DNA of 32,997 bases from Candidatus Omnitrophota bacterium (GTDB lineage: Bacteria > Omnitrophota > Gorgyraeia > Gygaellales > Profunditerraquicolaceae): the NCBI GenBank assembly GCA_028717885.1, contig JAQUMX010000014.1, forward strand, positions 1-32,997, in the 5' to 3' direction. This document shows, piece after piece, positions 1 to 19,647 of this stretch. The notes beneath the pieces were generated by a model that saw nothing but the letters and a program-made list of their open reading frames with translations, did not search any database and had not been told where the DNA came from. A program made the translations under genes and the position numbers. Position 1 is the stretch's first letter, and each line of letters starts with the position of its first letter.

Positions 1-3000
1 GTAGTTGCAGCATCGGAAACTTTGCCTGCCTTTGCCTGCTCTTCGGCAATTGCCACTAAAGCTTCGGATTTTTGGCAATCGTCCAGAATGGTATCCGCAG
101 TGCCCAAAGCAATCTCAAACTGACCTGCTGCAGCCTGCGCCCGGGAAATAGCGATCAAGGCAGAATTTTTATTAAACGTTTTATCAATCTTCTTTGCGGT
201 TTCTATAGAATCGCCAATCAAACCTGCTTCTGCCTGCGCCTGGGCAATAGCCCTTAAAGGATCGGATTGAGAAGCTGACGGAAGAGCTAATGTGCTAAGT
301 AACGCCTTCTGAAACGTATCTGCTGCTTGAGTGGTCTGGCCTGCTTTTGCCTGGGCTTTGGCAATGGCTGCTAATGGGATAATTTTATCAAGATCAACAG
401 TAATGTGATTTACCGTCGCCAAGGCATCATCAATCAAACCTGCTTCTGCCTGCGCCTGGGCAATAGCCCTTAAAGGATCGGATTGAGAAGCTGACGGAAG
501 AGCTAATGTGCTAAGTAACGCCTTCTGAAACGTATCTGCTGCTTGAGTGGTCTGGCCTGCTTTTGCCTGGGCTTTGGCAATGGCTGCTAAAGCCATATTC
601 TTATGCGTACTAAAAGGGATTTTGTCTACACTCTGAAAAACGCTGGCAATCCAGCCTACTTCCGCTTGGATCTCTGCAATTGCAAGCATGGCAAATGACT
701 TATGGTCGAAGTCTCGAATATCTTCTGCTGTTCTGATAGCTTCCTCAAAAGTTTCCGTTGCCGCAGTAGTTAACCCGGCCTTAGCCTGGGCTTTTGCAAC
801 AGCCACTAAAGCAGTAACTTTACTCCAGGGATCCACAATCCCGCGAGCATCTTCTAAAGCTTGCGCAAACAACTTTCCGGCTTTTTCCTGGGCTTTTTCG
901 CTGCTCTTTTTTTCTTGTGCCGTTAACACAGGCGGCTGTACCAAAAATTGATTGATCGCCACAGAATCCAACTCGCCCAAGCTTTCCGTCAAGCCCATAT
1001 CAACAATAATTACATTAGGCCTAACCTCTGTTACCTCGTAAGAAACATACACCTCTTCTGCAGTAATAATGTTTACTCTTTGTAAAAGTGACTTGAATTC
1101 TTTCTCTTCCTCCTGGCTTAATTGTCCTCTGCGGCTTGCCAATTCTACCAGGCGTGCCCCTAATTCTTCGCTTATTACTATACACCCTTCTTGTTTAATA
1201 AACGGCAGGCGTTCTTCTTGTGATAAATCAACCAAGTGCCTGATATCGAACTCTCTAACTGCCCGGGTACTATCTGCGGTAAAAGCAGCAACTAATACAG
1301 GCAAATGCCTGTTGCCCCCGACAGTTACTCCCGGAATAATCTGCGCGCCTAATTTCCGGAAGCTTTCTGCGCCTTGCCATTGAAAGAGTTTTTCGTGCAG
1401 GAAGATTACCTTTGGTTTATGCGCAACAGCCAGCCGAGAAAACGCCCGGCCATGCGGCAGGATAATATAGCCTTGTGCCTCTAGCCCCCGCAGGATCGGC
1501 GCTAAAAGTTCGCCTGCGCGTGCGCGTAAAGCAGTGACGATAAATTCGTTGTTAGGGTTCCCCTGGATCAAACCATCTAAACCGACGATAATCGTATTGA
1601 TATAATGCACCTTTTCAAGCGCAGAAAGCGTAGGGTGCTGGACGATCTTTTCTAAAAGATGCTCTATTGCAATTTGAAAGCGTGTTTTTCCGGAACCTCT
1701 TAAGTTCTGCTGTAAAACAATATTATCCCTGGCTTCTGTAACATCCATTAATGCAGCGCATTCTACTAATAGCCCGCCGCTTACCGTAGCGCCTTCAACA
1801 ATCTCATCTGATACGTCAACGGCAGTAATAACTTCTCCATTACGGCCGAATGAGATCCGGTGCGGCATATTGGGTCCGGTGCAGTGCACGACTTTTGTCT
1901 TAGTCAATTCTTCCTGCACTGCTTCGGGAGTCTCTAGCTGTGGAGTATCGCGATTACCTTCCTTCGGCACAAACATGCGCGCCAAAGTTTGTGCATTCAT
2001 TCCGCTGCCATTATCAACTACTGCGATGCTGAATTTTCCTATTGCTACTTGCACAAAACGGCCTTCGGATCCATGCGCAGAAGACGTGGGTTCTCCTGCC
2101 GGGACTATCACTGCCATATCCTCAAATCCATTTATTGCTTGTGCTTCCTGGCCTGCTTGTTGAGTAAATATATCTACCTCTGTAACAAAAGGGTAGCGCT
2201 CTCGAATTTTATTGATCAGTGTCTCCTGGGAAACCGGATGAGCCTTATCCGCATCTTGATCTAAAGCAGGGATAGGATCGACCGTAGCAACCGTAAGGAC
2301 TGTGCCTGTTTCAAGATCGCGCCCGGCATGCTTCCGGGCAATTGCCTGAAATTCTTCAAGCGGAACCTCCTGAATATTGATCCGCAGCCTGTTATCTTCT
2401 CCCCTAATAATCGTCAGCTGGTATGCTGGGCCATCGGTGGCGCGCGTAACAACCCTTACCTGATCTACGCCGTTAGGCTGCAGCCAGTACAAAATCTGTT
2501 TTATGCCTTTTCCGAACTGCCCGATATGAAAACCAAGTGCATCCAAGCTATTCGAGATTGCCTCCATGATTGACTGCAGCCGCGGCCCTTTATTTTGATA
2601 TTCGATTTCTATTTCCAGGCGAGGATCAGTGTAAGTCCCTTGATTAATCAAATCTATGACTTCAGGAGGATAATTACTTTCGATCAATCTCTGATATATC
2701 TGCGCGACAGCTTCCTCGCCAGATAGATTGCGCGGCAAATCTAAACTTGCCAAAACATCGTGCAATAACTGCCCCTTAAGAAGGCCACGCGCTATTTTCA
2801 TTTGCGCTGCGATAAAATGTTCCAGATCGACAAACCTATCTTTATTAACACTGGGCCGCTTTTTAACAGGCTCTATTTTCGGCCTAAATTGCTTTCTAAA
2901 CCATTCTCTAAAATCACGCAGAATGCGTCTGGGGTCAAATCTTGCTTCTTCATTTACGGCGTCGCCGCCCTCCATCGCCCTGTCTACAGCTATGCCTTGA

Positions 3001-5612
3001 TGTGCTTTCTGGCGTTGTTTGTCTTGGGGCCGGGTAAAGCCTTGAGAGTCTTTGAAGAGGCCTTCGATAAGCATGGGGATCTCTTCTGCGGAGATACCTT
3101 TTCTTTCGCACCAGATAGCCATGCCTTCATGGAAGAGTAGGTTGAGCTTAGTGTCTTTTCCTTCGCTTAGGGATTGAGGGGTAGTTTCATCTGAGAGAGC
3201 TTCCCAGTAGGAGTCTACTACTAATACCTGTTCTCCCTGGCGGACGGCTGATTGGCTGGGAGCTAAAGTATCCATCTCTGCCTGGGAAATGAGCTTGATT
3301 TGCGGTAGATGGAAGTCTGGGCCAAAGAAGCCTTCGGGATGTTCTGGAGTGCGTTCATTAATGATCCTGCCAGCTTCTGCAGGAGTAGGTACTTCTCTAC
3401 CAGAATACTCCCAGAGAGAATCGAAGGCAGAGGTGTCGATTGTGGAAATACCACCTTGGAAGCCAGCATCAAAAGAAGGTTCTTGTTGAAGGCCTGCCTT
3501 ACCTACTTCTTGAAGAAAAACAAAAGTTCCTGGCTGCTCAGGTTCTTCTAATGCGCTGCTGGGATTTCTGGCAACGGCATCAGAGGCAATTGGCAGCCTA
3601 GCACCATGCAATATTATTACCCTCTTAGGTTTTCTGCCTAGCATCGCGCCTACAGCCGCTCCAACCCTGGATTGTTTTAATGTTTTACTTAAATACTGCT
3701 GGATCGCTGCTTGCCAATCAGGGATATTTAAGTTTAAACGCGCAGCATCGCGGGCAGGATAAGAACGACTTGTAGCGGTTTCATCCTCGCTGCCAGATAA
3801 TTGAATCTCCGCCTTAACCGGGATTATTTTATTCTTTAGGTTCTGCGGGACATTGCCTCTTATAAACTCAAATAAGTGCACTGGCACAAATATCGCCTCA
3901 ACCAATTCAGCGCTTAGCTTCTGAAACGTATACATGGTCCCGGGCTGGCGCCGGCCTTCCAATTTTTCGAAGGAATCGTGGTCCGTTGATAATAAAATGA
4001 TTGCACCGCTACGCATCCTTTCTTCCAACTCAGGCTTGTCGGCTTCTTCCTCCAACAAGCTACCAGAACTTCTTTCCCCGATTATTTCGATAGGATTGTT
4101 ACCCGCTCCAGCCCCACTCAAAAGCTCCCAAATACAATTCTGAAAATAATCTTGATATAATCTTGCGCGTTCTGCAGCAGGCATGTCAGCAGGAATACGA
4201 TAACGAGATCGCCAGGCATTTTCATCCATGATCTCTATCGCAGTCGCAAAGACCTCGCCTGCGTCTTTATTCGCTCCCGTTAATAGGTCTAACCCTTCTT
4301 CCTTAGCCTTGTTACTGCCAACTAAGCCATTTTGCAGGATGGAATTTATAATCCTAACGCCTTCTGACCGCGCTCCATTTTCTCCTATTTGAGAAGTGCC
4401 TTTTTCTGGCGTAGATGATTGGCCCAATTGTTCCGATGCATACTGATCAACAGTTAAGCTCACATCGGTAATTGAATCCCCCAGAGCTGCGCGTATCCCC
4501 ACTAGATATCCGGTAGATTCAACTATGGCCGGTACGGGATTATTCACGCTGCCCTGCACATAAATCGTGCCTGCCCCAATGTCGCCTAAAGCAACACCGC
4601 CGGAAAAATAGCTTCTGATGGAACGGCCAAAAAGAGTATTGACCGGTTCTTTAATATTGTATTCGCCGTTTTTGAAGGATTGCTGATACGCATTAAAATA
4701 GGTGGTTTTATACCATGCCTCCTGCGAAGTCAGGCCCGTCAGATTTTCCTGGTCAATTAAGGCAGCATAAGCAGGATTTTTCTGTGTACATTTATCCTTA
4801 AACCACTGAGCGAGAATTAACGAATAATAAACCTGGCGCAAAGGCGCATAGCGCTTGGAATTATTGATCTCTTTAGTAATCTTGGGAATAATGAATTCGC
4901 GGATTAATTGCGAGGAATATTCGTTTAGCTCCTTCAGCCGTTGATCGTCAAAGTTGTACACTGCGGAATCTTTCAGATAGTCCTGCTCCAGCATTACCTT
5001 TAAGGTAGCCTTGTAAACATAGGCACTGCCGGGAGTTTCGCGAACAATGACCTCATCCGGCACAATCCAAGGCCGGGTCAAAGTCGGTATAGTAACATCG
5101 CTTGAGCCGAACAGCTCGGATGCTTTCTTGTAAAGCTTATCCCAATACTCTTTTCCTTCGGGGGTTTGAGGAGAAGTAAAACGAGCGGTATCCTTCTTTA
5201 ACTGCAGGTCTGCCTCTAATAAAATTTTTCCTATATCGGTTTGTCCTAATTTGTCATCGATAATGCTGTCTGCGGAATCCGGCCTAAGGTTAACCCAAAA
5301 AGAACTGTTCGGCAGCGTGACACCGATTAAAAAATATTTTAAAAGCGTAGAACTGGATTCTTTTAAGAAGCCTGCGCCTAATTCCTGATTGTCGCCTTTA
5401 TCTAAAAGTAATTGAAAATTATTTTCCCCGGGATTAAAGGCAAGGTATCTTAAATGCAGCGGCCGGAATTTATCCGCAACAATAGTGCTGCGCAATTGCG
5501 CCAAATATCCGGAAACATTCAGTTGGCCGGCAACTTGCGCGAAACCGCTTTGCTCAAAAGCAAGAAAAAAGCAAAGCAATAAGGATAATATTCTTACGAC
5601 TCTCCGTGGCAT
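1..5612 (-). CDS. Giant exported multidomain protein, C-terminus truncated by window edge: predicted signal peptide, unknown N-terminal region, GHKL-ATPase-like region (about 1850-2640), C-terminal TPR-like alpha repeats (about 3-930)
   Basis: Manual translation from ATG at 5612 (MPRRVVRILSLLLCFFLAFEQSGFAQVAGQLNVSGYL...) stays open for about 1870 codons with no stop seen. Motifs EAISNSLDA, GQFGKGIKQ, DNGSGM and repeated ALxAIAxAQAKAG units. Missing from ORF track because its stop is outside the window. Confidence 0.85.
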   Translation of the reverse strand, partial: MPRRVVRILSLLLCFFLAFEQSGFAQVAGQLNVSGYLAQLRSTIVADKFRPLHLRYLAFNPGENNFQLLLDKGDNQELGAGFLKESSSTLLKYFLIGVTLPNSSFWVNLRPDSADSIIDDKLGQTDIGKILLEADLQLKKDTARFTSPQTPEGKEYWDKLYKKASELFGSSDVTIPTLTRPWIVPDEVIVRETPGSAYVYKATLKVMLEQDYLKDSAVYNFDDQRLKELNEYSSQLIREFIIPKITKEINNSKRYAPLRQVYYSLILAQWFKDKCTQKNPAYAALIDQENLTGLTSQEAWYKTTYFNAYQQSFKNGEYNIKEPVNTLFGRSIRSYFSGGVALGDIGAGTIYVQGSVNNPVPAIVESTGYLVGIRAALGDSITDVSLTVDQYASEQLGQSSTPEKGTSQIGENGARSEGVRIINSILQNGLVGSNKAKEEGLDLLTGANKDAGEVFATAIEIMDENAWRSRYRIPADMPAAERARLYQDYFQNCIWELLSGAGAGNNPIEIIGERSSGSLLEEEADKPELEERMRSGAIILLSTDHDSFEKLEGRRQPGTMYTFQKLSAELVEAIFVPVHLFEFIRGNVPQNLKNKIIPVKAEIQLSGSEDETATSRSYPARDAARLNLNIPDWQAAIQQYLSKTLKQSRVGAAVGAMLGRKPKRVIILHGARLPIASDAVARNPSSALEEPEQPGTFVFLQEVGKAGLQQEPSFDAGFQGGISTIDTSAFDSLWEYSGREVPTPAEAGRIINERTPEHPEGFFGPDFHLPQIKLISQAEMDTLAPSQSAVRQGEQVLVVDSYWEALSDETTPQSLSEGKDTKLNLLFHEGMAIWCERKGISAEEIPMLIEGLFKDSQGFTRPQDKQRQKAHQGIAVDRAMEGGDAVNEEARFDPRRILRDFREWFRKQFRPKIEPVKKRPSVNKDRFVDLEHFIAAQMKIARGLLKGQLLHDVLASLDLPRNLSGEEAVAQIYQRLIESNYPPEVIDLINQGTYTDPRLEIEIEYQNKGPRLQSIMEAISNSLDALGFHIGQFGKGIKQILYWLQPNGVDQVRVVTRATDGPAYQLTIIRGEDNRLRINIQEVPLEEFQAIARKHAGRDLETGTVLTVATVDPIPALDQDADKAHPVSQETLINKIRERYPFVTEVDIFTQQAGQEAQAINGFEDMAVIVPAGEPTSSAHGSEGRFVQVAIGKFSIAVVDNGSGMNAQTLARMFVPKEGNRDTPQLETPEAVQEELTKTKVVHCTGPNMPHRISFGRNGEVITAVDVSDEIVEGATVSGGLLVECAALMDVTEARDNIVLQQNLRGSGKTRFQIAIEHLLEKIVQHPTLSALEKVHYINTIIVGLDGLIQGNPNNEFIVTALRARAGELLAPILRGLEAQGYIILPHGRAFSRLAVAHKPKVIFLHEKLFQWQGAESFRKLGAQIIPGVTVGGNRHLPVLVAAFTADSTRAVREFDIRHLVDLSQEERLPFIKQEGCIVISEELGARLVELASRRGQLSQEEEKEFKSLLQRVNIITAEEVYVSYEVTEVRPNVIIVDMGLTESLGELDSVAINQFLVQPPVLTAQEKKSSEKAQEKAGKLFAQALEDARGIVDPWSKVTALVAVAKAQAKAGLTTAATETFEEAIRTAEDIRDFDHKSFAMLAIAEIQAEVGWIASVFQSVDKIPFSTHKNMALAAIAKAQAKAGQTTQAADTFQKALLSTLALPSASQSDPLRAIAQAQAEAGLIDDALATVNHITVDLDKIIPLAAIAKAQAKAGQTTQAADTFQKALLSTLALPSASQSDPLRAIAQAQAEAGLIGDSIETAKKIDKTFNKNSALIAISRAQAAAGQFEIALGTADTILDDCQKSEALVAIAEEQAKAGKVSDAAT
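215..374. repeat. Copy 1 of a 160-bp perfect direct repeat inside the giant gene
   Basis: caatcaaacctgcttctgcc...gcaatggctgctaa is identical to 431-590, offset 216 bp. Confidence 0.95.
431..590. repeat. Copy 2 of the 160-bp perfect direct repeat
   Basis: Identical to 215-374; the 216-bp offset equals 72 codons, so frame is preserved. Confidence 0.95.
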
Positions 5613-5884: not shown

Positions 5885-6538
5885 TTAAATTATAACCACA
5901 AACTCGCCTTTTGGAGGGGATTTCTTGAATTTTTCGATGATTTTTGCGGGCTTATCGCGGATTATTTCTTCGAATTTTTTGGTCAATTCTCTGCCTACGA
6001 CCACCTCAATATCGCCATACACGCTTGAGATATCTCCTAAAGTAGCAATAATTCTATGGCAGGATTCATAAAAAATCAGAGTATTTTTTTCTTTGGCAAA
6101 TTCCTTAAGGCGGTTACGCCTGGCAATAGTGCGGTTAGGAAGAAAGCCGGCAAAGAAAAATTCGTGCGTCGGTTTTCCGGATACAACCAATGCATTCACA
6201 AAAGCAGTCGGCCCAGGGATTACTGTAATGGAAATATTATTTTTTATTGCCAAGTTAATAATATGGAACCCGGGATCTAAAATCCCCGGGGTTCCCGCAT
6301 CAGAAACCAAGGCAACATCCTTGCCTTCTTTTAGCAAGCTCAACAGATACTCCCCTTTGCTCAGGCGGTTGTGCTGAAAATAACTTGTCGTAGGCTTTGA
6401 GATATTGTAATGGTCGAGTAGGATTTTGGTATGGCGGGTATCTTCGCAGGCAATAAGATCGACGGACTTTAGGACTTCGATAGCGCGAAAGGTGATATCT
6501 TTTAAATTTCCTATCGGTGTGGCAACGATATAAAGCAT
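5885..6538 (-). CDS. rsmI: 16S rRNA (cytidine(1402)-2'-O)-methyltransferase
   Basis: MLYIVATPIGNLKDITFRAIEVLKSVDLIACEDTRHT...; the ATG at 6538 overlaps the glmS stop by 1 nt (TAATG), so the tracked start at 6589 is probably too far upstream. Confidence 0.93.
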   Translation of the reverse strand: MLYIVATPIGNLKDITFRAIEVLKSVDLIACEDTRHTKILLDHYNISKPTTSYFQHNRLSKGEYLLSLLKEGKDVALVSDAGTPGILDPGFHIINLAIKNNISITVIPGPTAFVNALVVSGKPTHEFFFAGFLPNRTIARRNRLKEFAKEKNTLIFYESCHRIIATLGDISSVYGDIEVVVGRELTKKFEEIIRDKPAKIIEKFKKSPPKGEFVVII

Positions 6539-8376
6539 TATTCCACAGTCACTGATTTTGCCAGGTTGCGCGGCTGGTCTACATCGCATCCGCGTTTTAC
6601 CGCGATATGGTAGGCTAACAATTGTAACGGCAGCGCTACGACTAACGGCGAAAGAAATTCACTGGTTTTAGGAAGATAGATTACTTCAGAAGTCAACTCC
6701 TTGATTATTTTATCGCCGCAGCTGGCAATAGCAATAATCTTGCCTTTTCTGCTGCGGATCTCCTCGATATTAGAGATCATTTTTTCATAAATTTTCGAGG
6801 CTGGCGCAATACAAACCACTGCCCGGTATTCATCGATTAAAGCGATCGGCCCGTGTTTCATTTCTCCTGCAGCATAGCCTTCTGCGGGAATATAGGAAAT
6901 TTCTTTCAGCTTCAAAGCGCCTTCCAAAGCAGAAGGAAAATTAATATTCCTGCCCAAATATAAGAAAGAGCCTAAATGCGAGTGATTGCGCGCGATTTTA
7001 GCGATAATATGCTGGTCTTTTAAAATCGCCTCTTGCAGCTTCGGGATACGCTGTAATTCCTCAAGAAATTTATTGATTTTCTCTTTCGCAACAACATTGC
7101 GCAGCCTTGCCAGATAAAAAGCAAATAAATATAAGGCGATTAATTGCGCAGTATATGCTTTTGTGGAAGCAACGCCAATCTCCGGGCCGGCATGCGTATA
7201 GATTACGCCGTCGGATTCCCGGGTCAAGGTTGAGCCCAAGACATTACAAATCGATAAAACGCTGCAGCCGCGTTTTCTGGCTTCTCGGACTCCGGCCAAA
7301 GTGTCGGCAGTTTCTCCTGACTGGCTAATTGCAATTACTAAAGAATGTTTGTCTACAAAAAGATCGCGGTAGCGGAATTCGCTGGAGACGTCTACATTAA
7401 TCGGTAAGCCGCATAAAGCTTCGAGAATGTATTTTCCGACCAGGCCGGCGTGATAGGCCGTGCCACATGCAACGATAGAGATATTTTTAATACTCTTAAG
7501 TTTTGCTTCCGGAATATGCTGCTCTGAAAAGATAATCTTATTTATGCCTTTCGCGATCCTTAAATTCAAAAGGTCGGCAAGAATCCTGGGCTGCTCATTA
7601 ATTTCCTTGAGCATGAAATGTTTATACCCCTGCTTCTGGGTCTGGGCGATATCCCAGTTAATCCGGGTAATATTCTTGGTAATCGCCTTACCGTGCAAAT
7701 CGGTTATCCGGACATTATCTTTCGTTAAAACTGCTATTTCCCCTTCTTCTAAAAAGATTACGTCTTTGGTAGAATCCAAGACTGCCGGCACATCAGAAGC
7801 AATAAAGTTTTCTCCTTGCCCGACGCCTACGATCAATGGGCTGCCGGAACGGGCGCTGATTATCTTTTCCGGTTCACGCCGGGAGATTACGCCGATAGCA
7901 AATGACCCGCGCACCAACGCTAGGGTTTTGCGCACCGCTTCTTCCAGGCAGGCATGCCGAGAAAACTTCTCGATCAAATGCACCAGTACTTCCGTGTCGG
8001 TCTGGCTTTTAAAAATATGGCCTTCTTTGATCAAACTTGTTTTTAAGGGTTCGTAATTTTCGATGATCCCGTTATGCACCACGGCGATTTCTCCGTCGCA
8101 ATCATCGTGCGGATGGGCATTGACCTGATTAGGGGCGCCGTGTGTTGCCCAGCGTGTATGCGCAATTCCCAGAAATCCGGAGAGTGGTTTTTTAGAAATA
8201 ATTTTTTCCAGGGCGCTGATTTTTCCGGGAGTTTTACGGATGGAGATTTGTTGTTTGCGGGAGAGTAAAATTGCCATGCCGCTGGAATCATAACCGCGGT
8301 ATTCCAGCCGCTTTAAACCATTAAGCAGGATTTCCTGTGCCTGCCTATTACCAACGTAGCCAATTATGCCACACAT
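6538..8376 (-). CDS. glmS: Glutamine--fructose-6-phosphate aminotransferase (isomerizing)
   Basis: MCGIIGYVGNRQAQEILLNGLKRLEYRGYDSSG..., two SIS domains, C-terminal KSVTVE. Confidence 0.97.
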   Translation of the reverse strand: MCGIIGYVGNRQAQEILLNGLKRLEYRGYDSSGMAILLSRKQQISIRKTPGKISALEKIISKKPLSGFLGIAHTRWATHGAPNQVNAHPHDDCDGEIAVVHNGIIENYEPLKTSLIKEGHIFKSQTDTEVLVHLIEKFSRHACLEEAVRKTLALVRGSFAIGVISRREPEKIISARSGSPLIVGVGQGENFIASDVPAVLDSTKDVIFLEEGEIAVLTKDNVRITDLHGKAITKNITRINWDIAQTQKQGYKHFMLKEINEQPRILADLLNLRIAKGINKIIFSEQHIPEAKLKSIKNISIVACGTAYHAGLVGKYILEALCGLPINVDVSSEFRYRDLFVDKHSLVIAISQSGETADTLAGVREARKRGCSVLSICNVLGSTLTRESDGVIYTHAGPEIGVASTKAYTAQLIALYLFAFYLARLRNVVAKEKINKFLEELQRIPKLQEAILKDQHIIAKIARNHSHLGSFLYLGRNINFPSALEGALKLKEISYIPAEGYAAGEMKHGPIALIDEYRAVVCIAPASKIYEKMISNIEEIRSRKGKIIAIASCGDKIIKELTSEVIYLPKTSEFLSPLVVALPLQLLAYHIAVKRGCDVDQPRNLAKSVTVE

Positions 8377-8405
8377 CGAGCACCTTATTCTTTTATCTGG
8401 CGAAG

Positions 8406-8457
8406 TCCTCCGAGCCCCGCAAAAACCATTACTTATCTATTAAGGGGCGAAGGAGGA
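8406..8457. repeat. Intergenic inverted repeat (tcctccgagcccc / ggggcgaaggagga)
   Basis: Near-complementary arms around an AT-rich loop between glmS and tRNA-Glu. Confidence 0.55.
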
Positions 8458-8467
8458 AAATTTAAAA

Positions 8468-8542
8468 TGTCCCCAACCGGATTTGAACCGGTGTCGAGAG
8501 CTTGAAAAGCTCTTGTCCTAGACCAGGCTAGACGATGGGGAC
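8468..8542 (-). tRNA. tRNA-Glu(UUC)
   Basis: Cloverleaf on reverse strand: GTCCCCA/TGGGGAC acceptor, D arm GTCTAGCCTGGTCTAGGAC, anticodon loop ttTTCaa, T arm CCGGTTCAAATCCGG; no encoded CCA. Confidence 0.95.
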
Positions 8543-8548
8543 GGAAAT

Positions 8549-10984
8549 TTATTCCTCTTCTTCTTCGGCAATTACCGGCGCTACACAGGAAACGCGGTCC
8601 TTGTCCTGCAGTTTAATCAGGCGCACGCCCTGGGCTGACCTGCCGGTCTCGCGGATGTCTTTTACCGCACAACGCAAGAATATCCCGTTTTGCGTAATGA
8701 CCATCAATTCGTCATTGTCGCTCACGGTTTTTAAATTTACCGCTTCGCCGTTTTTGTCGGTAACTTTTATATTAATTACGCCTTTGCCGCCGCGCGAGGT
8801 TAAACGGTACTCATCTATCGTGGTACGCTTGGCAAAACCTAGACTGGTGACGGTGAGGATGGCCGAATCTTTTTTCGGCACTACCATATCAATTACTTCA
8901 TCTTTCTTCGCCAGAGAAATCCCGCGCACACCGCGCGCGGCTCTGCCCATATCGCGTACCTTGGCTTCGGAGAATCGGATCGCCTTGCCTTGCCGCGTGC
9001 CGATCAACAACTCTTCTTTGCCGTCGGTAAGCTCAACGCCGATCAGCTGGTCGTCTTTATCCAAGGTAATCCCAATGATCCCGCCTTTGCGCGGGTTGCC
9101 GTAGGCGTCAAGCCGGGTCTTCTTAATATTCCCCTCTTTGGTCACCATCACTAAATATTTGTCCGGAGAAAATTCTTTTACCGGAACAGTAGAACTGATC
9201 TTTGAATTAGCCACCATCTGGACTAAGTTAACAATGGCCTTGCCTTTAGAGATTTTGCTTGCCTGCGGAATTTCATAAACTTTGAGCCAATGCACCTGGC
9301 CCTTATCCGTAAAGATAAGCAGGTAATCTTTGGTTGAGGCGACAAAAAGATGCTCGATAAAATCCTCTTCCTTAAGATCCGCTCCGGTTGTACCTCTTCC
9401 CCCGCGTTTTTGCTTACGGTATGCGCTAACTGGCAAACGCTTGATATATCCGGCATGACTGATCGTCACTACTACGTCCTCTTCGGCAATTAAATCCTCT
9501 ACTGCCAACTCCTCTACTTCGCCGACAATATCAGTCCTGCGCTCGTCACCGTATTTATTTTTCAGGCCTTCCAGCTCTTCTTTAATAATGGCTTCGATCT
9601 TTTTTTCAGAGGCAAGGATCGCCCGGCAAAGCTCGATCTTCTTTAAAAGTTCCGCATATTCTGCGTCGATTTTATCGCGCTCAAGGGCAGTGAGGCGCTG
9701 CAATTGCATTTCCAGGATTGCCTGCGACTGGATTTCCGAAAGCTCGAATTCTTTCATCAGGCGTTCCTTCGCGGCTTCGGTATTCTTTGAGGTCTTTATC
9801 GTCTTGATAATCCGGTCTATAAACTTTAAAGCGATCTTTAAGCCTTCCAGGATATGCGCGCGCTTTAAGGCCTTGTCTAATTCGAATTGCGTCCTGCGGC
9901 GGATAATTTCTTTTCGATGGGCAATATAACAATCCAGTATCTGGCGTAAATTTAAAACCCGCGGCCGGTTCTCCACCAACGCCAGCATAATAATTCCGAA
10001 GGTGGTTTCTAATTGGGTGTGCTTAAAAAGCTGGTTTAAAATTATCTGCGGCTCAACGTCGCGCTTTAGCTCCACCACAATCCGCATCCCGTCCTTATCG
10101 GATTCATCGCGGATGTCGGAAATACCTTCGATTTTTTTCTCTTCCACCAAACCGGCAATTGCTTCAATCAGCCCGGCTTTCTGTACTTGATAAGGAATTT
10201 CCGTAATTACGATAAAATCTTTTCCGTTCTTCTGTTGCTCTACTGCCGCCCGGGCGCGTACGGTTAATTTGCCCTTACCCGTGGCATACGCTTCTTTAAT
10301 TCCGCCCTTGCCGCAAATTACACCGCCCGTCGGAAAATCCGGGCCTTTAACATAACGCATCAAATCTTTAATTTCTGCCTGCGGATTTTCCAGAATATGA
10401 ATAATTGCGTCTGCGATTTCGTTTAAGTTGTGCGGCGGGATATTGGTTGCCATGCCTACGGCAATACCGCTGGAGCCGTTTACCAAAAGATTAGGTAGAG
10501 CTGCCGGTAACAACAACGGTTCACTTAAAGAGGCGTCGAAGTTTGGCCCGAAATTAACCGTTTCCTTATCGATATCCGCAAGCATCACATCGGAAATAGC
10601 CGCGAGCCTTGCTTCGGTATAACGCATTGCCGCTGCCGTATCGCCATCGACAGAGCCAAAGTTTCCCTGGCCTTCTACCAGAGGATAGCGCAAAGAGAAA
10701 TCCTGCGCCATTCTCACTAAAGTATCATAAACCGCAACGTCTCCGTGCGGATGGTACTTGCCTAATACCTCTCCGACGATACGCGCGCATTTTTTATAGG
10801 GCTTGCTATGGTCAAGGTTCAGTTCCTGCATCGCAAAAAGAATCCTGCGGTGCACAGGCTTCAAACCATCGCGCACATCCGGAAGGGCGCGGCCGACGAT
10901 TACGCTCATCGCGTAATTTAGATATGAATCTTTTACTTCTTCTTCGATATAAACCGGGACTACTTTTTCGTTTCTGGCGTACAT
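8549..10984 (-). CDS. gyrA: DNA gyrase subunit A
   Basis: [23 protein letters not shown], catalytic Tyr in MRYTEARL, GyrA-box-like QKRGGRG, acidic tail. Confidence 0.98.
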
Positions 10985-10998
10985 TTTATAATTCCTTA

Positions 10999-13748
<2,750 letters not shown>

Positions 13749-13770
13749 AATAAATGCACACTGGCCAATC

Positions 13771-13786
13771 CGTCCTTACAAGGACG
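13771..13786. other. Short hairpin in the dnaN-DUF721 gap
   Basis: cgtcct-taca-aggacg, 6-bp stem with 4-nt loop. Confidence 0.4.
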
Positions 13787-13828
13787 CACTTGACAATCCA
13801 ATATGCCAACGTGCGACATGGACAGGTG

Positions 13829-14920
13829 TCATCCTAAGCGCATCGGCAACACGATATAGATATAGCCGTCGATACGGATTACTGCCGGCTTCTCGCTGTC
13901 GCTTAATTCCAGTTCCACGGTTTCCGTGGTTAAGTTCTTTAAAACATCGATCAAATATACCGGATTAAAGCCGATGACCAATTCTTTGCCGCGGTAATCC
14001 ACCCCTACTTCTTCCCGGGACTCTCCTATATCCGGCGTAGATTTAGAAACCACTAATTTATCTTTGAACACTTCCAATTTCACCGCCTGATAATCCGGGG
14101 TCACCAATAAAGCCGCGCGCTTAATTGCCAATAACATTTCTTCCCTGTTAACCTTGATTTTATTTTCTGAAACCGCGGGCACTACCTGGCTATAATCCGG
14201 AAACTCGCCTTCAATCAAACGGGAAATAATCATCACTTTGCCCAGGTCAAACATTGCCTGATTGGCGCCCAGCACTAACGAAAGCTCCCCCTCTTCTTTC
14301 AGGTTGCGGTTTAACTCCTGGATAGTTTTAATCGGCACAATCATGGTAACTTCTTTATCCACATCCTGCCTTAATTTACGCTCCACAATCGCCAGGCGCT
14401 TACCGTCGGTAGCCACCAGGGTAAGGATATTTTTCTTAATCCTAAAAAGAATGCCGTTCAAAATATAACGGGTTTCGTCAAAAGAAACCGCGAAAGACGT
14501 AAGCCCTAAAATTTCTTTTAGGCCGGCCTGGTCCAGCTTAATCACTTCTTTATCCTTAAATTCCGGCAGCCGGGGAAACTCCTCTTTTGATAATCCCATA
14601 ATCTTAAACTGGCAGGTTTTACTTTCAATCACCACTAAATCATTCTTTTTAGTATTTACTCCGACGCTCTCACTCGGCAATTCCCTGATAATATCGCCAA
14701 ATCTTTTCGCGGGAATCGTGATTGCTCCTGTCTCCTGGATATTCACAGGTATTGCACAACTTATCCCGATATCCAAATCCGTAGCAGTGAGCCTTAAATT
14801 ACCCCCTTGCGCTTCTATTAAAATATTCGATAATATCGGCAAAGCTGTTTTAGGAGTAATTACGTTCTGCACAGTTTGAATTCCGGAAAGTAAGACGTCT
14901 TTTTCCACACTAAACTTCAT
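13829..14920 (-). CDS. dnaN: DNA polymerase III sliding clamp (beta)
   Basis: MKFSVEKDVLLSGIQTVQNVITPKTALPILSNILIEA..., C-terminal YIVLPMRLG. Confidence 0.97.
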   Translation of the reverse strand: MKFSVEKDVLLSGIQTVQNVITPKTALPILSNILIEAQGGNLRLTATDLDIGISCAIPVNIQETGAITIPAKRFGDIIRELPSESVGVNTKKNDLVVIESKTCQFKIMGLSKEEFPRLPEFKDKEVIKLDQAGLKEILGLTSFAVSFDETRYILNGILFRIKKNILTLVATDGKRLAIVERKLRQDVDKEVTMIVPIKTIQELNRNLKEEGELSLVLGANQAMFDLGKVMIISRLIEGEFPDYSQVVPAVSENKIKVNREEMLLAIKRAALLVTPDYQAVKLEVFKDKLVVSKSTPDIGESREEVGVDYRGKELVIGFNPVYLIDVLKNLTTETVELELSDSEKPAVIRIDGYIYIVLPMRLG

Positions 14921-14950
14921 TTTTCAACACTCCTTTACATAAAAATGTAC

Positions 14951-14974
14951 CCCGATTTATCCTTTAAAGTCGGG
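14951..14974 (-). promoter_or_regulatory. Hairpin in the dnaN 5' leader
   Basis: CCCGA-c-TTTA-aagga-TAAA-TCGGG on the minus strand, 9-bp stem with a bulge. Confidence 0.4.
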
Positions 14975-15107
14975 TGCTATTATTATAAATATATTAATAA
15001 ATATAAACCGTATTAATAATAAGAGGGCTGTATTTCTGTTAACAAGAATATAAATTATTGATTTTAAATAACTTATTCAAAATAGTTCTTGTGAATATCT
15101 TCTGGGT

Positions 15108-16448
15108 TTATTGTTTAATAATCTGTAAAACCCGCTCTATTTTGTTTTTTAATATTTCATTATGACTAATATCTTCCTTTATTTTATTTACTGAGTGTAA
15201 AACTGTAGTATGATCTTTTCCTCCAAAGAAGTCCCCAATTTCGGGTAATGATAAGTCGGTTAACTCTCTGCTTAAATACATGGCAATCTGGCGCGGCAAA
15301 ACCACGGTTTTATTACGCTTTTTAGCGCGGAAGTCCGCTAAGGCGATTCCAAATTCCTCGGCGACACAGCGCTGAATAAAATCAACGGTAATTAATTTTT
15401 GCGGTTCGCGCAATAAATCTTTTAAAACCTCTTTTGCCAGATCCAGGGTAATAGGCTTTTCCTCTAATAATGAATAAGCGATGGTGCGGATAAGCGCCCC
15501 TTCCAGTTCCCGAATATTAGTCTTGATTAATTGTGCGATAAAAAAAATCACTTCTTGCGGCACAGCTACTGGTTCGCGCTCAATTTTCTTTTTTAAGATT
15601 GCTACCCGGGTTTCTAAATCGGGCGGCTGAATATCAGTTGCCAGCCCCCAGCTGAAACGCGACACCAGGCGGTCCTGCAAGTTGGAAATCTCTTTTGGCG
15701 GCCGGTCGGAAGAAATTATAATTTGTTTGTGTGCGTCATATAGGGCGTTAAAGGTGTGAAAAAATTCCTCCTGCGTGGATTCTTTGCCGGCGATAAACTG
15801 GATATCATCGACAACCAGGACATCAACCTTATTTCTGTATTGTTGGCGAAACGAAGAAGTAGAATGATGTTGAATCGCGTCGATTAATTCATTGGTGAAG
15901 CGCTCCGAAGTAAGATAACAAATTTTTGCGCCTGGGGAATTTTTTACGATTTGATGGCAGATCGCCTGCATCAAATGGGTTTTGCCCAGGCCTACTCCTC
16001 CGTAAATAAAAAGCGGGTTATAAGTTTTTGCCGGGGCCTCAGACACTGCCAGGGAGTACGCGTGTGCGTGGCGGTTAGAAGAGCCAATCACAAAATTATC
16101 AAAAGTGTAGCGCGGGTTTAAGCCAGCGTAAGACGGCTGGTCAGTGCTTATCCTGGTCGCCCCCTCTTTCTTATTTGCTCCTTCTGTTGCTGATGCAACA
16201 GGCAGGGTGTTGACTGCCAGGCTAATTTCCATCTTTTTGGTAAAAGCACGTTCAGCTGCCTCTTGAAGCAAGGGCAGATAATGGCTCTCTACCCAGTCTT
16301 TAAAGAAATTGTCCGGAGCCAGGATGATTAAGCGGCCCTCTCCATCCGGTTGGGCGTTTAGCGGCGCAATCCAGGTGTCAAAGGTAGTTTTCCCCAATCG
16401 TTCCGTGAGGTGCTGCCTTGCTTTTTCCCAGGCTGTTTGAATGTCCAT
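15108..16448 (-). CDS. dnaA: Chromosomal replication initiator DnaA
   Basis: MDIQTAWEKARQHLTERLGKTTFDTWIAPL..., Walker A GGVGLGKTHL, HTH GGKDHTTVLHSV. The tracked GTG start at 16484 overlaps DnaA-box-like sites; ATG at 16448 fits the family start better. Confidence 0.96.
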   Translation of the reverse strand: MDIQTAWEKARQHLTERLGKTTFDTWIAPLNAQPDGEGRLIILAPDNFFKDWVESHYLPLLQEAAERAFTKKMEISLAVNTLPVASATEGANKKEGATRISTDQPSYAGLNPRYTFDNFVIGSSNRHAHAYSLAVSEAPAKTYNPLFIYGGVGLGKTHLMQAICHQIVKNSPGAKICYLTSERFTNELIDAIQHHSTSSFRQQYRNKVDVLVVDDIQFIAGKESTQEEFFHTFNALYDAHKQIIISSDRPPKEISNLQDRLVSRFSWGLATDIQPPDLETRVAILKKKIEREPVAVPQEVIFFIAQLIKTNIRELEGALIRTIAYSLLEEKPITLDLAKEVLKDLLREPQKLITVDFIQRCVAEEFGIALADFRAKKRNKTVVLPRQIAMYLSRELTDLSLPEIGDFFGGKDHTTVLHSVNKIKEDISHNEILKNKIERVLQIIKQ

Positions 16449-16465
16449 TACGATCTTTTCTTTGG

Positions 16466-16507
16466 CTATCCACAGATTATGCACATCTTGAATAAATCTG
16501 TGGAAAT
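16466..16507. promoter_or_regulatory. Cluster of three DnaA-box-like sequences
   Basis: CTATCCACA 16466-16474, TTATGCACA 16477-16485 (matches TTWTNCACA), TGTGGAAAT 16499-16507 (reverse ATTTCCACA). Confidence 0.6.
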
Positions 16508-16556
16508 GTTCTAAGAGGGCGAAACCTCATTACAATAAAAAAAGTTACGTGTCTGT

Positions 16557-16584
16557 ATTATACAATATAATTAACCGCAGTCAA
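16557..16584 (-). promoter_or_regulatory. dnaA promoter
   Basis: Reverse strand TTGACT -16 bp- TATAAT. Confidence 0.75.
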
Positions 16585-16600
16585 CAAAAAGTTTTTTCTA

Positions 16601-16628
16601 TTGACCGCCAAGGACTTTATGTTATAAT
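16601..16628 (+). promoter_or_regulatory. rpmH operon promoter
   Basis: TTGACC -16 bp- TATAAT. Confidence 0.8.
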
Positions 16629-16660
16629 GTGTGAAACTTTTTGAAGGAAGGACTGTCTCT

Positions 16661-16798
16661 ATGAAGAAAAATATCAAGACTCCCACAAAAATTGTCGCTA
16701 AGAGGCGGCAAGGGTTTCGTAGCAGAATGAGCTGCAAGGCCGGCAGGGCTTTATTGGCCCGTCGACGGAAAAAGGGCAGAAAACAACTGTCTATTTAG
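16661..16798 (+). CDS. rpmH: 50S ribosomal protein L34 (below ORF-track cutoff)
   Basis: MKKNIKTPTKIVAKRRQGFRSRMSCKAGRALLARRRKKGRKQLSI*. Confidence 0.93.
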   Translation: MKKNIKTPTKIVAKRRQGFRSRMSCKAGRALLARRRKKGRKQLSI

Positions 16799-16801
16799 TT
16801 G

Positions 16802-17017
16802 ATGCTCAAAAGGATAGCACTCGGTTTAATCAGGCTGTACCAATGTTTTTTACGGCCTTTACTGCCATGCAGTTGCCGCTTTGTTCCCAGCTGTTCTGAA
16901 TATGCAAAAGAAGCGCTGGAACGCTACGGTTTTTTTAAGGGGGCAACTTTGTCCCTAAAAAGATTGCTAGCATGCCATCCTTTTTCCGGCAAATCTGGAT
17001 ACGATCCACTAAAATAG
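16802..17017 (+). CDS. yidD: Membrane protein insertion efficiency factor YidD
   Basis: [36 protein letters not shown] at 16802, 3 nt after rpmH stop. Confidence 0.93.
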
Positions 17018-17030
17018 GAAAACAAAAACT

Positions 17031-18551
17031 ATGGAAAAACGTTTAATTTTAGCAATTAGTGTTTCAATGTTGGTGCTCTTGGCCTGGTCAGCAATTATGC
17101 CTAAACCGCCGGTTCCGGTTAAGGCTGAAGCAGTATCTGTTGTCACTAAAACAGCACAAGCGGTAACGCAAACAAGTAAAGAAAGTGTGTCCACGCCGCC
17201 AAAAGAACAAGCTGTGTTTACTGAGGCCAAGTTTGCCACCTCACTTTTTAGCTTAAATTTCTTTGAACCTATTGCCGCACTTAATGATGCAATATTTAAA
17301 CAGTACCAATCCCACCGTGTTGTATTAAGTTCAAGTTTTTTGTTAGGAGGCCAGGATTTAATTTTCCATAGGGAAAATTCTGCACCTGGCACTTTAGTTT
17401 TTGTCCAATCTGACAACACTAAGAAGATTAAAAAAGAATTTATTTTTTCTAAGAATAGTTATGCCATAGATTTAGTAATAACAATTAGTAATTTGTCCAA
17501 TCTGAATTTCAATTATAATTTACCATTGAGTATTGGGAAACTGAATTTTTCCGGAGATCAAAATATTGCCCGTTTTGAAGATGTAATGATTGCAACTAAG
17601 GAAAAGAAGTTCTTTCTTAATGGGAAAAAAGATGCCCAGGAAGACAATGTAAAATATGTCGCCATTAGAGAAAAGTACTTTACTCTAATTGCTGAGCCCG
17701 AGAACGAGAGCAGCGCGTTTGTTAAAAAAATCGATGCCAAAGATTCGGAAATCGGCTTATTGCCGAAAAATATCAATATCGCGCCTGGTGGACAATTTGT
17801 GCAAAAAGTGCATATTTATTTAGGGCCTTTGGATCTTAAGCAGATCAATGCGGTCAAGCCGGAGTGGGGAAATGTAGTAAATTACGGCACCTTTGATTTT
17901 ATCGGCCAAATCGTATTGCAATTATTGGAATTTTTTCATCGCTTGGTAGGCAATTGGGGAGTGGCAATTATACTCCTAAGTTTAGGGATTTATCTTTTAC
18001 TTTACCCCTTTACTTTGAAGCAGATGCGTTCAATGAAGGAAATGCAAGCCTTGCAGCCTAAAGTGGAAGCACTGAGAATTACCCACAAGGATAACCCGCA
18101 AAAATTGAATAAAGAGATCTTGGAGCTCTACCGCGAGCATAAAGTGAATCCTTTGGGAGGCTGCTTGCCCTTGCTCTTACAAATGCCGGTTTTCTTTGCG
18201 CTCTATCAGGTAATGATACGTTGTGTAGCGCTGAAGGGGGCAAAGTTTCTCTGGATTAAGGACCTTTCAGAGCCGGATAAGTTATTTTTGTTACCGACGA
18301 ATTTGCCGGTTTTGGGGAATGAATTTAATTTGCTGCCGCTTTTAATGGCAGCTTTAATGTTCGTGCAGCAAAAAGCTTCTTTAGTCTCCTCAGGTTCAAC
18401 TTCTGAGGAACAGCAGAAAATCATGATGATTGTGATGCCGATTATGTTCGGAGTGATTTTCTACCGCATGCCGTCTGGATTGGTATTATATTGGTTTGTG
18501 AATAGCTTGTTAATGTTGATTTATCAATTGAAAGTTAAGAGTGGAAAATGA
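17031..18551 (+). CDS. yidC: Membrane protein insertase YidC
   Basis: N-terminal TM, periplasmic domain, NWGVAIILLSLGIYLLLYPFTLKQMRSMKEMQALQPKVEAL, NPLGGCLPLLLQMPVFFALYQV. Confidence 0.97.
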   Translation: MEKRLILAISVSMLVLLAWSAIMPKPPVPVKAEAVSVVTKTAQAVTQTSKESVSTPPKEQAVFTEAKFATSLFSLNFFEPIAALNDAIFKQYQSHRVVLSSSFLLGGQDLIFHRENSAPGTLVFVQSDNTKKIKKEFIFSKNSYAIDLVITISNLSNLNFNYNLPLSIGKLNFSGDQNIARFEDVMIATKEKKFFLNGKKDAQEDNVKYVAIREKYFTLIAEPENESSAFVKKIDAKDSEIGLLPKNINIAPGGQFVQKVHIYLGPLDLKQINAVKPEWGNVVNYGTFDFIGQIVLQLLEFFHRLVGNWGVAIILLSLGIYLLLYPFTLKQMRSMKEMQALQPKVEALRITHKDNPQKLNKEILELYREHKVNPLGGCLPLLLQMPVFFALYQVMIRCVALKGAKFLWIKDLSEPDKLFLLPTNLPVLGNEFNLLPLLMAALMFVQQKASLVSSGSTSEEQQKIMMIVMPIMFGVIFYRMPSGLVLYWFVNSLLMLIYQLKVKSGK

Positions 18552-18757
18552 CCCCTGAGCCTTTAAAAACAAGCATAGAGATTGATGGAAAGACTGTTGA
18601 AGAAGCGGTGAAAAAGGCGCTCAAAACATTAAAGGTGGAGCGTAGCAAGGTAAAAATCGAAGTACTCTCTGAAGAACAGAAGGGGCTTTTTGGAATGCCT
18701 GGCGCAAAACCGGCCAAAGTACGAGTAAGTATTATTAAAGGTAAAGAAAAAACTTGA
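18548..18757 (+). CDS. Stand-alone Jag N-terminal domain protein
   Basis: SIEIDGKTVEEAVKKALKTLKVERSKVKIEVLSEEQKGLFGMPGAKPAKVRV; ATGA overlap with yidC; no KH or R3H domain before the stop. Confidence 0.8.
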   Translation: MTPEPLKTSIEIDGKTVEEAVKKALKTLKVERSKVKIEVLSEEQKGLFGMPGAKPAKVRVSIIKGKEKT

Positions 18758-18784
18758 CAAAGAAAGCATTTTTGTCATAATGAA
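18754..18784 (+). promoter_or_regulatory. parA promoter (TTGACA / CATAAT)
   Basis: acTTGACA-aagaaagcatttttgt-CATAATg, 16-bp spacer. Confidence 0.75.
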
Positions 18785-18786
18785 AG

Positions 18787-18802
18787 TGTTCCGCGGGGAA
18801 CG
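18787..18802. promoter_or_regulatory. parS: parS-like site 1
   Basis: TGTTCCGCGGGGAACG; compare TGTTCCACGTGGAACA-type parS. Confidence 0.65.
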
Positions 18803-18808
18803 TTTTAG

Positions 18809-18824
18809 GGTTCCGCGTGGAACA
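18809..18824. promoter_or_regulatory. parS: parS-like site 2
   Basis: GGTTCCGCGTGGAACA; 22 bp from site 1. Confidence 0.7.
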
Positions 18825-18840
18825 TAGCGTAACCATATAA

Positions 18841-19647
18841 ATGTCAATGGGTAAGATAATTACAGTCTGTAATCAAAAAGGTGGCACTGGCAAAACTACC
18901 TCGGCAATTAATATTGCTTCTTTTCTTGCTGTATTAGGGAAAAAAGTTTTGCTTATTGATCTGGATCCGCAAGCTAACGCCACCAGCGGAACAGGCATTA
19001 ATAAACATAACATTCAAAAAAGCACCTACCATGTTTTATTGGAAGAATTAGACGTTAACGAAGTCTTACAGCCCACCGCAATTCCCAATCTTTTTTTAGC
19101 TCCCTCGAATTTGGACCTTACCGGCGCAGAAGTAGAATTAGTTGGAGTGCTGGGAAGAGAATATCGTCTTAAGCGCGCCTTACATAAAATCAAAAATCAA
19201 TTCGATTTTTTTATTATCGATTCTCCGCCATCATTAGGCTTATTAACCATTAATGGATTATGCGCGGCAGATTCAGTGCTCATTCCTGTGCAGTGCGAAT
19301 TTTATGCCTTGGAAGGTTTGACGCAACTCAATAATACTATTAGACTTGTGAGAGATAATATCAATCCGCATTTAGAGATCGAAGGCGTGCTTTTAACCAT
19401 GGCTGATTATCGCACTAACCTTACTAAGGAAGTAATTCAAGAAGCGCGCAATTATTTCAAAGACCGGGTTTACAAAACCGTGATCCCGCGCAACGTCCGT
19501 TTGACTGAGGCGCCAAGTTTTGGTAAACCGATTTATCTTTATGACAAAGATTCTTTGGGCGCAAAAAAATACGAGGAACTTTGCAAGGAAATTTTAGGCC
19601 TACCTTTAACTCCCAGTTTAGCCACCTCTACAGAAGGAGAATCTTAG
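18841..19647 (+). CDS. parA: Chromosome partitioning ATPase ParA/Soj
   Basis: MGKIITVCNQKGGTGKTTSAINIASFLAVLGKKVLLIDLDPQANATSG. Confidence 0.97.
   Translation: MSMGKIITVCNQKGGTGKTTSAINIASFLAVLGKKVLLIDLDPQANATSGTGINKHNIQKSTYHVLLEELDVNEVLQPTAIPNLFLAPSNLDLTGAEVELVGVLGREYRLKRALHKIKNQFDFFIIDSPPSLGLLTINGLCAADSVLIPVQCEFYALEGLTQLNNTIRLVRDNINPHLEIEGVLLTMADYRTNLTKEVIQEARNYFKDRVYKTVIPRNVRLTEAPSFGKPIYLYDKDSLGAKKYEELCKEILGLPLTPSLATSTEGES

Follow-up and report, generated by a model that had tools for sequence, protein, structure and literature searches.

Results

The window analyzed here is the whole contig G000:C14 (32,997 bases) of a 1.47-Mb genome. It begins with a minus-strand open frame (3-5612) encoding 1870 amino acids of a giant multidomain protein. 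The frame is open at the first base of the contig; its 3' end runs off the contig edge and the C-terminus of the protein is missing. All features of the protein given below lie on the minus strand. It starts with a signal-peptide-like hydrophobic stretch (MPRRVVRILSLLLCFFLAFEQSGFAQ, 5535-5612), which was recognized in the sequence and by a hydropathy scan and has similar counterparts in relatives. Family alignments, AlphaFold models and profile tests delimit a GHKL domain of transposed motif order together with a transducer-like domain (residues 993-1326, 1635-2636). A conserved helical and alpha/beta region (1035-1634) follows, as judged from the 30-member alignment and the AlphaFold model. 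The C-terminal part (3-977), which is cut by the contig edge, carries TPR-like repeats indicated by repeat copies and a weak TPR_7 match below the cut-off. Two exact 52-residue copies (AAIAKAQAKAGQTTQAADTFQKALL...) are located there at 216-371 and 432-587.

In Pfam and NCBIfam the window protein gave weak TPR matches alone and its GHKL domain stayed unnamed; Pfam returned no HSP90 match and a PDB sequence search no match at all. Besides, the string LLFHEGMAIW is found at 3111-3140, and the relatives L003 and L004 carry HEIFH and HEILH upstream of the ATPase domain. These strings suggest a metallopeptidase-like domain upstream of the ATPase domain, which would have decayed in the window protein. 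The giant gene adjoins an origin-type cluster (5885-19647) with an rsmI-like methyltransferase gene, a glmS-like gene, gyrA, gyrB, dnaN, dnaA, yidC and a parA-like gene; the assignment of the rsmI-like gene was judged from sequence.

A preliminary description of this DNA had reported GHKL motif strings at 1850-2640 in an unusual order with G1 last and had proposed a circularly permuted or segment-swapped fold and possibly a new GHKL family. All of these strings are present in one open frame and the residue numbers agree. The N-box EAISNSLDA (residues 1017-1025, 2538-2564), with E1017 and N1021 invariant in the alignments, is followed by the G2 motif GQFGKG (residues 1031-1036, 2505-2522) with a conserved K and Q coming next, by the T motif GTVLTV (residues 1103-1108, 2289-2306) and, last, by the G1 motif DNGSGM (residues 1200-1205, 1998-2015). 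G1 is part of a segment of beta hairpin, G1 motif and lid start (residues 1182-1224, 1941-2069), which was delimited by the position scan and the model. Next comes the transducer-like domain (residues 1239-1326, 1635-1898), defined by alignments and common to the canonical-order siblings described below; its conserved arginines are R1257 (SFGRN) and R1295 (EARDN). The sequence motifs of the GHKL superfamily, namely an N-box with Glu and Asn, G1 of the form DxGxG(M/I), G2 of the form GxxGxG and a T motif, were all found in the family, but the superfamily order N-box, G1, G2, T is not kept, as G1 is placed after the T motif. The match to the GHKL motifs is far beyond chance.

Conservation of the predicted ATP site was followed in two alignments. 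In 16 relatives with 31-45% identity to the window domain, the N-box residues E, N, D and A, the G2 residues G, F and G with the following K and Q, the G of the T motif, the D, G, G and M of G1 and the two arginines of the next domain are invariant. In 30 members reaching down to 23% identity the same residues are nearly invariant, and the pattern repeats with a Microgenomates member as reference. The order N-G2-T-G1 was found in 20 of 20 members measured, which represent two subfamilies. Relative to the N-box start, G2 is situated at 14-21, T at 73-95 and G1 at 148-188 residues in the transposed proteins. A conventional G1 between N-box and G2 does not occur, the gap being just 5-12 residues.

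The domain is present in 4 of 97 close genomes, the window's own counted. Within the phylum its profile matches 23 genomes out of 386, in 16 cases with E < 1e-80, and a scan of 85,462 species genomes yielded 29 loci. These belong mostly to Candidatus Omnitrophota; several are from Patescibacteria, and single members are labelled Elusimicrobia, Auribacterota, FCPU426 and Marinamargulisbacteria. Motif order and ATP-site residues are kept in about 30 relatives from Omnitrophota, Elusimicrobiota, Auribacterota, FCPU426 and Patescibacteria, as well as in the second subfamily described below. In a sample of 384 Patescibacteria the sole full-length match was the query genome itself; therefore, the domain is rare there. 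Complete frames with the domain mostly measure about 1,850-5,000 amino acids and some are longer. A 13,907-aa open frame of Auribacterota (L149, G811:C52:34979-35773) matches the transposed domain. Elsewhere these proteins carry repeats; those of the window protein are TPR-like, whereas L031 has TPR and the Patescibacteria L055 and L057 have WD40 repeats. In L034 a second, canonical-type HATPase_c_3 match below the cut-off (residues 3820-3897 of a 4474-aa frame) occurs in addition to the transposed domain. Since the arrangement is conserved in more than 20 genomes, a misassembly is improbable and a chance arrangement was likewise rejected. No relative was found in viral contigs, tblastn with the window domain against phage records and with the Microgenomates member against plasmids returned none, and a mobile or viral origin was therefore dismissed. 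An anti-phage defence protein was also considered and rejected, as PADLOC gave no credible match.

AlphaFold predicted the window domain with a pLDDT of 86.0 and a pTM of 0.83 from 30 aligned sequences, and the domain of the Microgenomates member, which is 30% identical to the window, with 86.9 and 0.87. Helices and strands come in the same order in both models. In the window model the hairpin shows block-mean confidences of 91-97, and the transposed segment contains the strands 265-270 and 274-279 (numbering of the model). Fold searches with both models placed GHKL proteins first. With the window model, Foldseek against the PDB listed yeast Hsp90 at the top (E 5.4e-4, probability 0.89), with TRAP1, Topo VI and MORC3 following near the top and some unrelated chains in between. 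For the Microgenomates domain the first 36 matches were all Hsp90 or TRAP1, with E down to 1.2e-5 and a probability of 1.00. Superposition scores were low to modest, with global TM-scores to Hsp90 of at most 0.50 by query length, and the rmsd was high; an aligner that depends on sequence order would be expected to give such values with a transposed fold, but they do not prove one.

The G1 segment, which covers construct residues 261-303 and window positions 1941-2069, was excised from the family alignment and reinserted at about 50 positions spanning residues 76-256. Restored HMMER profiles shifted in the same direction relative to native ones, albeit weakly, and histidine kinases preferred G1 before T. 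Therefore, the versions were compared by hhalign with HtpG, MORC-like, MutL and GyrB profiles. The native order scored 40.9 over 27 columns against HtpG. The score peaked at 90.3 (probability 98.1, 116 columns, 28% identity) with the segment placed after residue 106, which is the exact junction of N-box and G2; six residues further on it was 64.5. Similar peaks were obtained with the MORC-like profile at 106 (76.0), with MutL at 104 (59.8) and with GyrB at 107 (55.3). As controls, other segments of equal length were moved, for which the HtpG score did not exceed 58.4; among 14 cyclic rotations the highest scores were 64.3 with HtpG and 44.0 with the MORC-like profile. These comparisons, together with the sibling profiles given below, show homology of the segment with the canonical G1 hairpin and hence its transposition.

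Weak matches led to a second subfamily with equally transposed order, called B, to which L021-L024, L026, L027 and the divergent L129 belong; B-like matches were further seen in Elusimicrobiota. With the profile of B we detected additional giant frames of the phylum (L126, L127, L131-L134) whose Hsp90-like GHKL domains keep N-box, G1, G2 and T in the canonical order. These canonical siblings have the same transducer-like domain downstream, with the conserved Arg in most, and genome G244 holds both transposed and canonical-order domains. The sibling domains are unnamed in the libraries searched and poorly covered by Pfam; the two tested there both match HATPase_c_3, one above the cut-off. In addition, the G2-T part of the B profile matches many frames of about 620-650 amino acids, one of which is an HtpG locus; this indicates that the closest relatives with a name are Hsp90-type domains. 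HtpG (PF00183) was found in just 3 of 96 genomes of the phylum sample.

From N-box to G2 the canonical siblings span about 64 residues and the transposed proteins 16-17; from T to the transducer arginine the respective distances are about 117 and 170-186. In medians, the N-box/G2 interval is about 47 residues shorter in the transposed proteins and the stretch from T to the transducer arginine about 53-69 residues longer. Against the canonical siblings the profile score of family A rose from 86.8 in native to 167.8 in restored order and that of subfamily B from 193.9 to 271.6. In a tree of the N-box, G1 and G2-T parts in common order (152 columns, rooted on HtpG, with some long branches), the transposed sequences, all 20 of them, group in a single clade (bootstrap 96, SH-aLRT 90) with the canonical siblings outside, and the label transposed or canonical needs one change. 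This supports, without proving, that the transposed order arose once, and the spacing of lost and gained residues agrees with the tree.

Discussion

The domain described here is a topological variant of GHKL, since its motif order differs and its homology is established by the position scan and the sibling profiles. It resembles Hsp90, HtpG and TRAP1, which are the top structural matches, in having all ATP-site motifs and a G2 of the GQFG.G type, and the restored profiles align over 106-172 columns. Unlike them, it has a different motif order, no Pfam Hsp90-family match and a place in giant proteins with other repeats. With bacterial MORC-like, MutL and GyrB ATPases it shares the Bergerat-fold motifs, and the restored profile matches them better than the native one; however, their motif order differs and the similarity is weaker than to HtpG. 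The canonical siblings have the same motifs and the same transducer-like domain but carry G1 between N-box and G2. The reading as a GHKL domain with rearranged motif order, which Pfam and NCBIfam do not recognize, is supported.

We regard the domain, with a probability of about 80%, as an Hsp90-like GHKL (Bergerat-fold) ATPase domain with a transposed G1 hairpin that acts as an ATP-driven switch in giant proteins. What was computed is the motif order, the conservation of the ATP site, the homology once the order is restored, the canonical siblings sharing the downstream domain and the single transposed clade. About 45 residues comprising the adenine-binding G1 beta hairpin and the lid start would have moved from between N-box and G2 into the linker that joins the final strand of the ATPase domain to the transducer-like (middle-domain-like) domain. 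The relocated hairpin would re-enter the same sheet, and the ATP site is most likely unchanged in three dimensions. Judged by its position, the conserved Arg in (A/S)RD is found at a place comparable to the Hsp90 middle-domain arginine; Arg1295 presumably stands for the catalytic arginine there. In GHKL proteins ATP binding closes the lid and drives dimerization and clamp closure (PMC12733681). The domain would likewise bind and hydrolyze ATP, with Glu1017 as the putative catalytic base, dimerize in an ATP-dependent manner and pass the signal through the transducer-like domain to the rest of the giant protein, in which TPR or WD40 repeats may form the partner-binding part. We infer that the whole protein most likely acts as a clamp or switch that is driven by a nucleotide and coupled to repeats for partner binding.

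Several other explanations have to be weighed. A circular permutation, in which the old termini were joined and new ones opened, would also alter the motif order and could leave G1 last. However, no cyclic rotation of N-G1-G2-T yields N-G2-T-G1, and the best of the 14 rotations stayed far below the single-segment move (64.3 vs 90.3 for HtpG, 44.0 vs 76.0 for the MORC-like profile), which renders this origin extremely improbable. The domain is a segment transposition and not a circular permutation, so that of the two possibilities first proposed the segment swap stands and the permutation falls. It is also very unlikely that the late DNGxGM marks a second, degenerate GHKL-like domain while the first one lost its G1, leaving no single ATP site. 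Where they were inspected in transposed relatives, matches to the Pfam models HATPase_c and HATPase_c_3 do span the G1 stretch alone. Nevertheless, the late G1 is accompanied by no second N-box, G2 or T, G1 is absent from the early part of all members and the two halves show joint conservation. Moreover, the canonical siblings contain each motif once and the same transducer-like domain, and the removed length roughly equals the gained one.

The transposed hairpin might instead complete the ATP site of the partner subunit, so that the transposition would have made an obligate intersubunit active site by a dimer domain swap. GHKL proteins of the Hsp90, MutL and GyrB types work as N-terminal dimers, and the segment now lies in the linker before the transducer-like domain. 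The single-chain models are nevertheless confident right through the hairpin, and this arrangement appears unlikely to us. Another conceivable, though rather doubtful, explanation would be a non-catalytic scaffold in which the fold is retained but ATP no longer used, for instance because the domain is exported. By hydropathy, most 5'-complete Omnitrophota members (L031-L058) begin with a signal-peptide-like stretch and have no further strong hydrophobic segment before the domain, which may consequently reside outside the cytoplasm, where ATP is scarce. On the other hand, Patescibacterial members with a visible start have no such N-terminus. Even divergent members share, without exception, the catalytic Glu, the Mg-binding Asn, the adenine-binding Asp and the glycines, which is unusual for pseudo-ATPases, and the preservation of the complete ATP site speaks in favour of nucleotide use.

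To our knowledge, the GHKL motif order has been taken to hold universally, from histidine kinases up to Hsp90 and gyrase, and it is built into the family models. Therefore, transposed proteins are missed, and the window protein stays without a match. In the open-access literature we found no report of a permuted GHKL fold, although one in a subscription journal could be missed; a relocated G1 segment in a GHKL domain has apparently never been described before. Non-circular permutations have been described for the HK97-like capsid fold of phage BPP-1 (PMC3863775) and for RNA (PMC10085705). The segment order is altered there as well and the place in three dimensions is kept, but the cases concern neither GHKL nor any other ATPase.

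The occurrence of transposed and canonical siblings in the same phylum, even in one genome, provides a rare before-and-after pair for the study of how folds tolerate rearrangement. Giant open reading frames of Omnitrophota are known; their roles have been called poorly understood, and adhesion or predation has been proposed (PMC10066038). Our results raise the question why a seemingly intact ATPase domain comes after an export signal. Quite tentatively, a single ancestral transposition might have created a new stable Bergerat topology that spread over several phyla in giant, apparently exported proteins and serves, outside the cell that produces it, as an ATP-driven clamp akin to Hsp90, e.g. 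in an ATP-containing neighbouring or host cell. With this finding, giant proteins of obscure function in Omnitrophota and related bacteria gain a likely ATP-driven motor.
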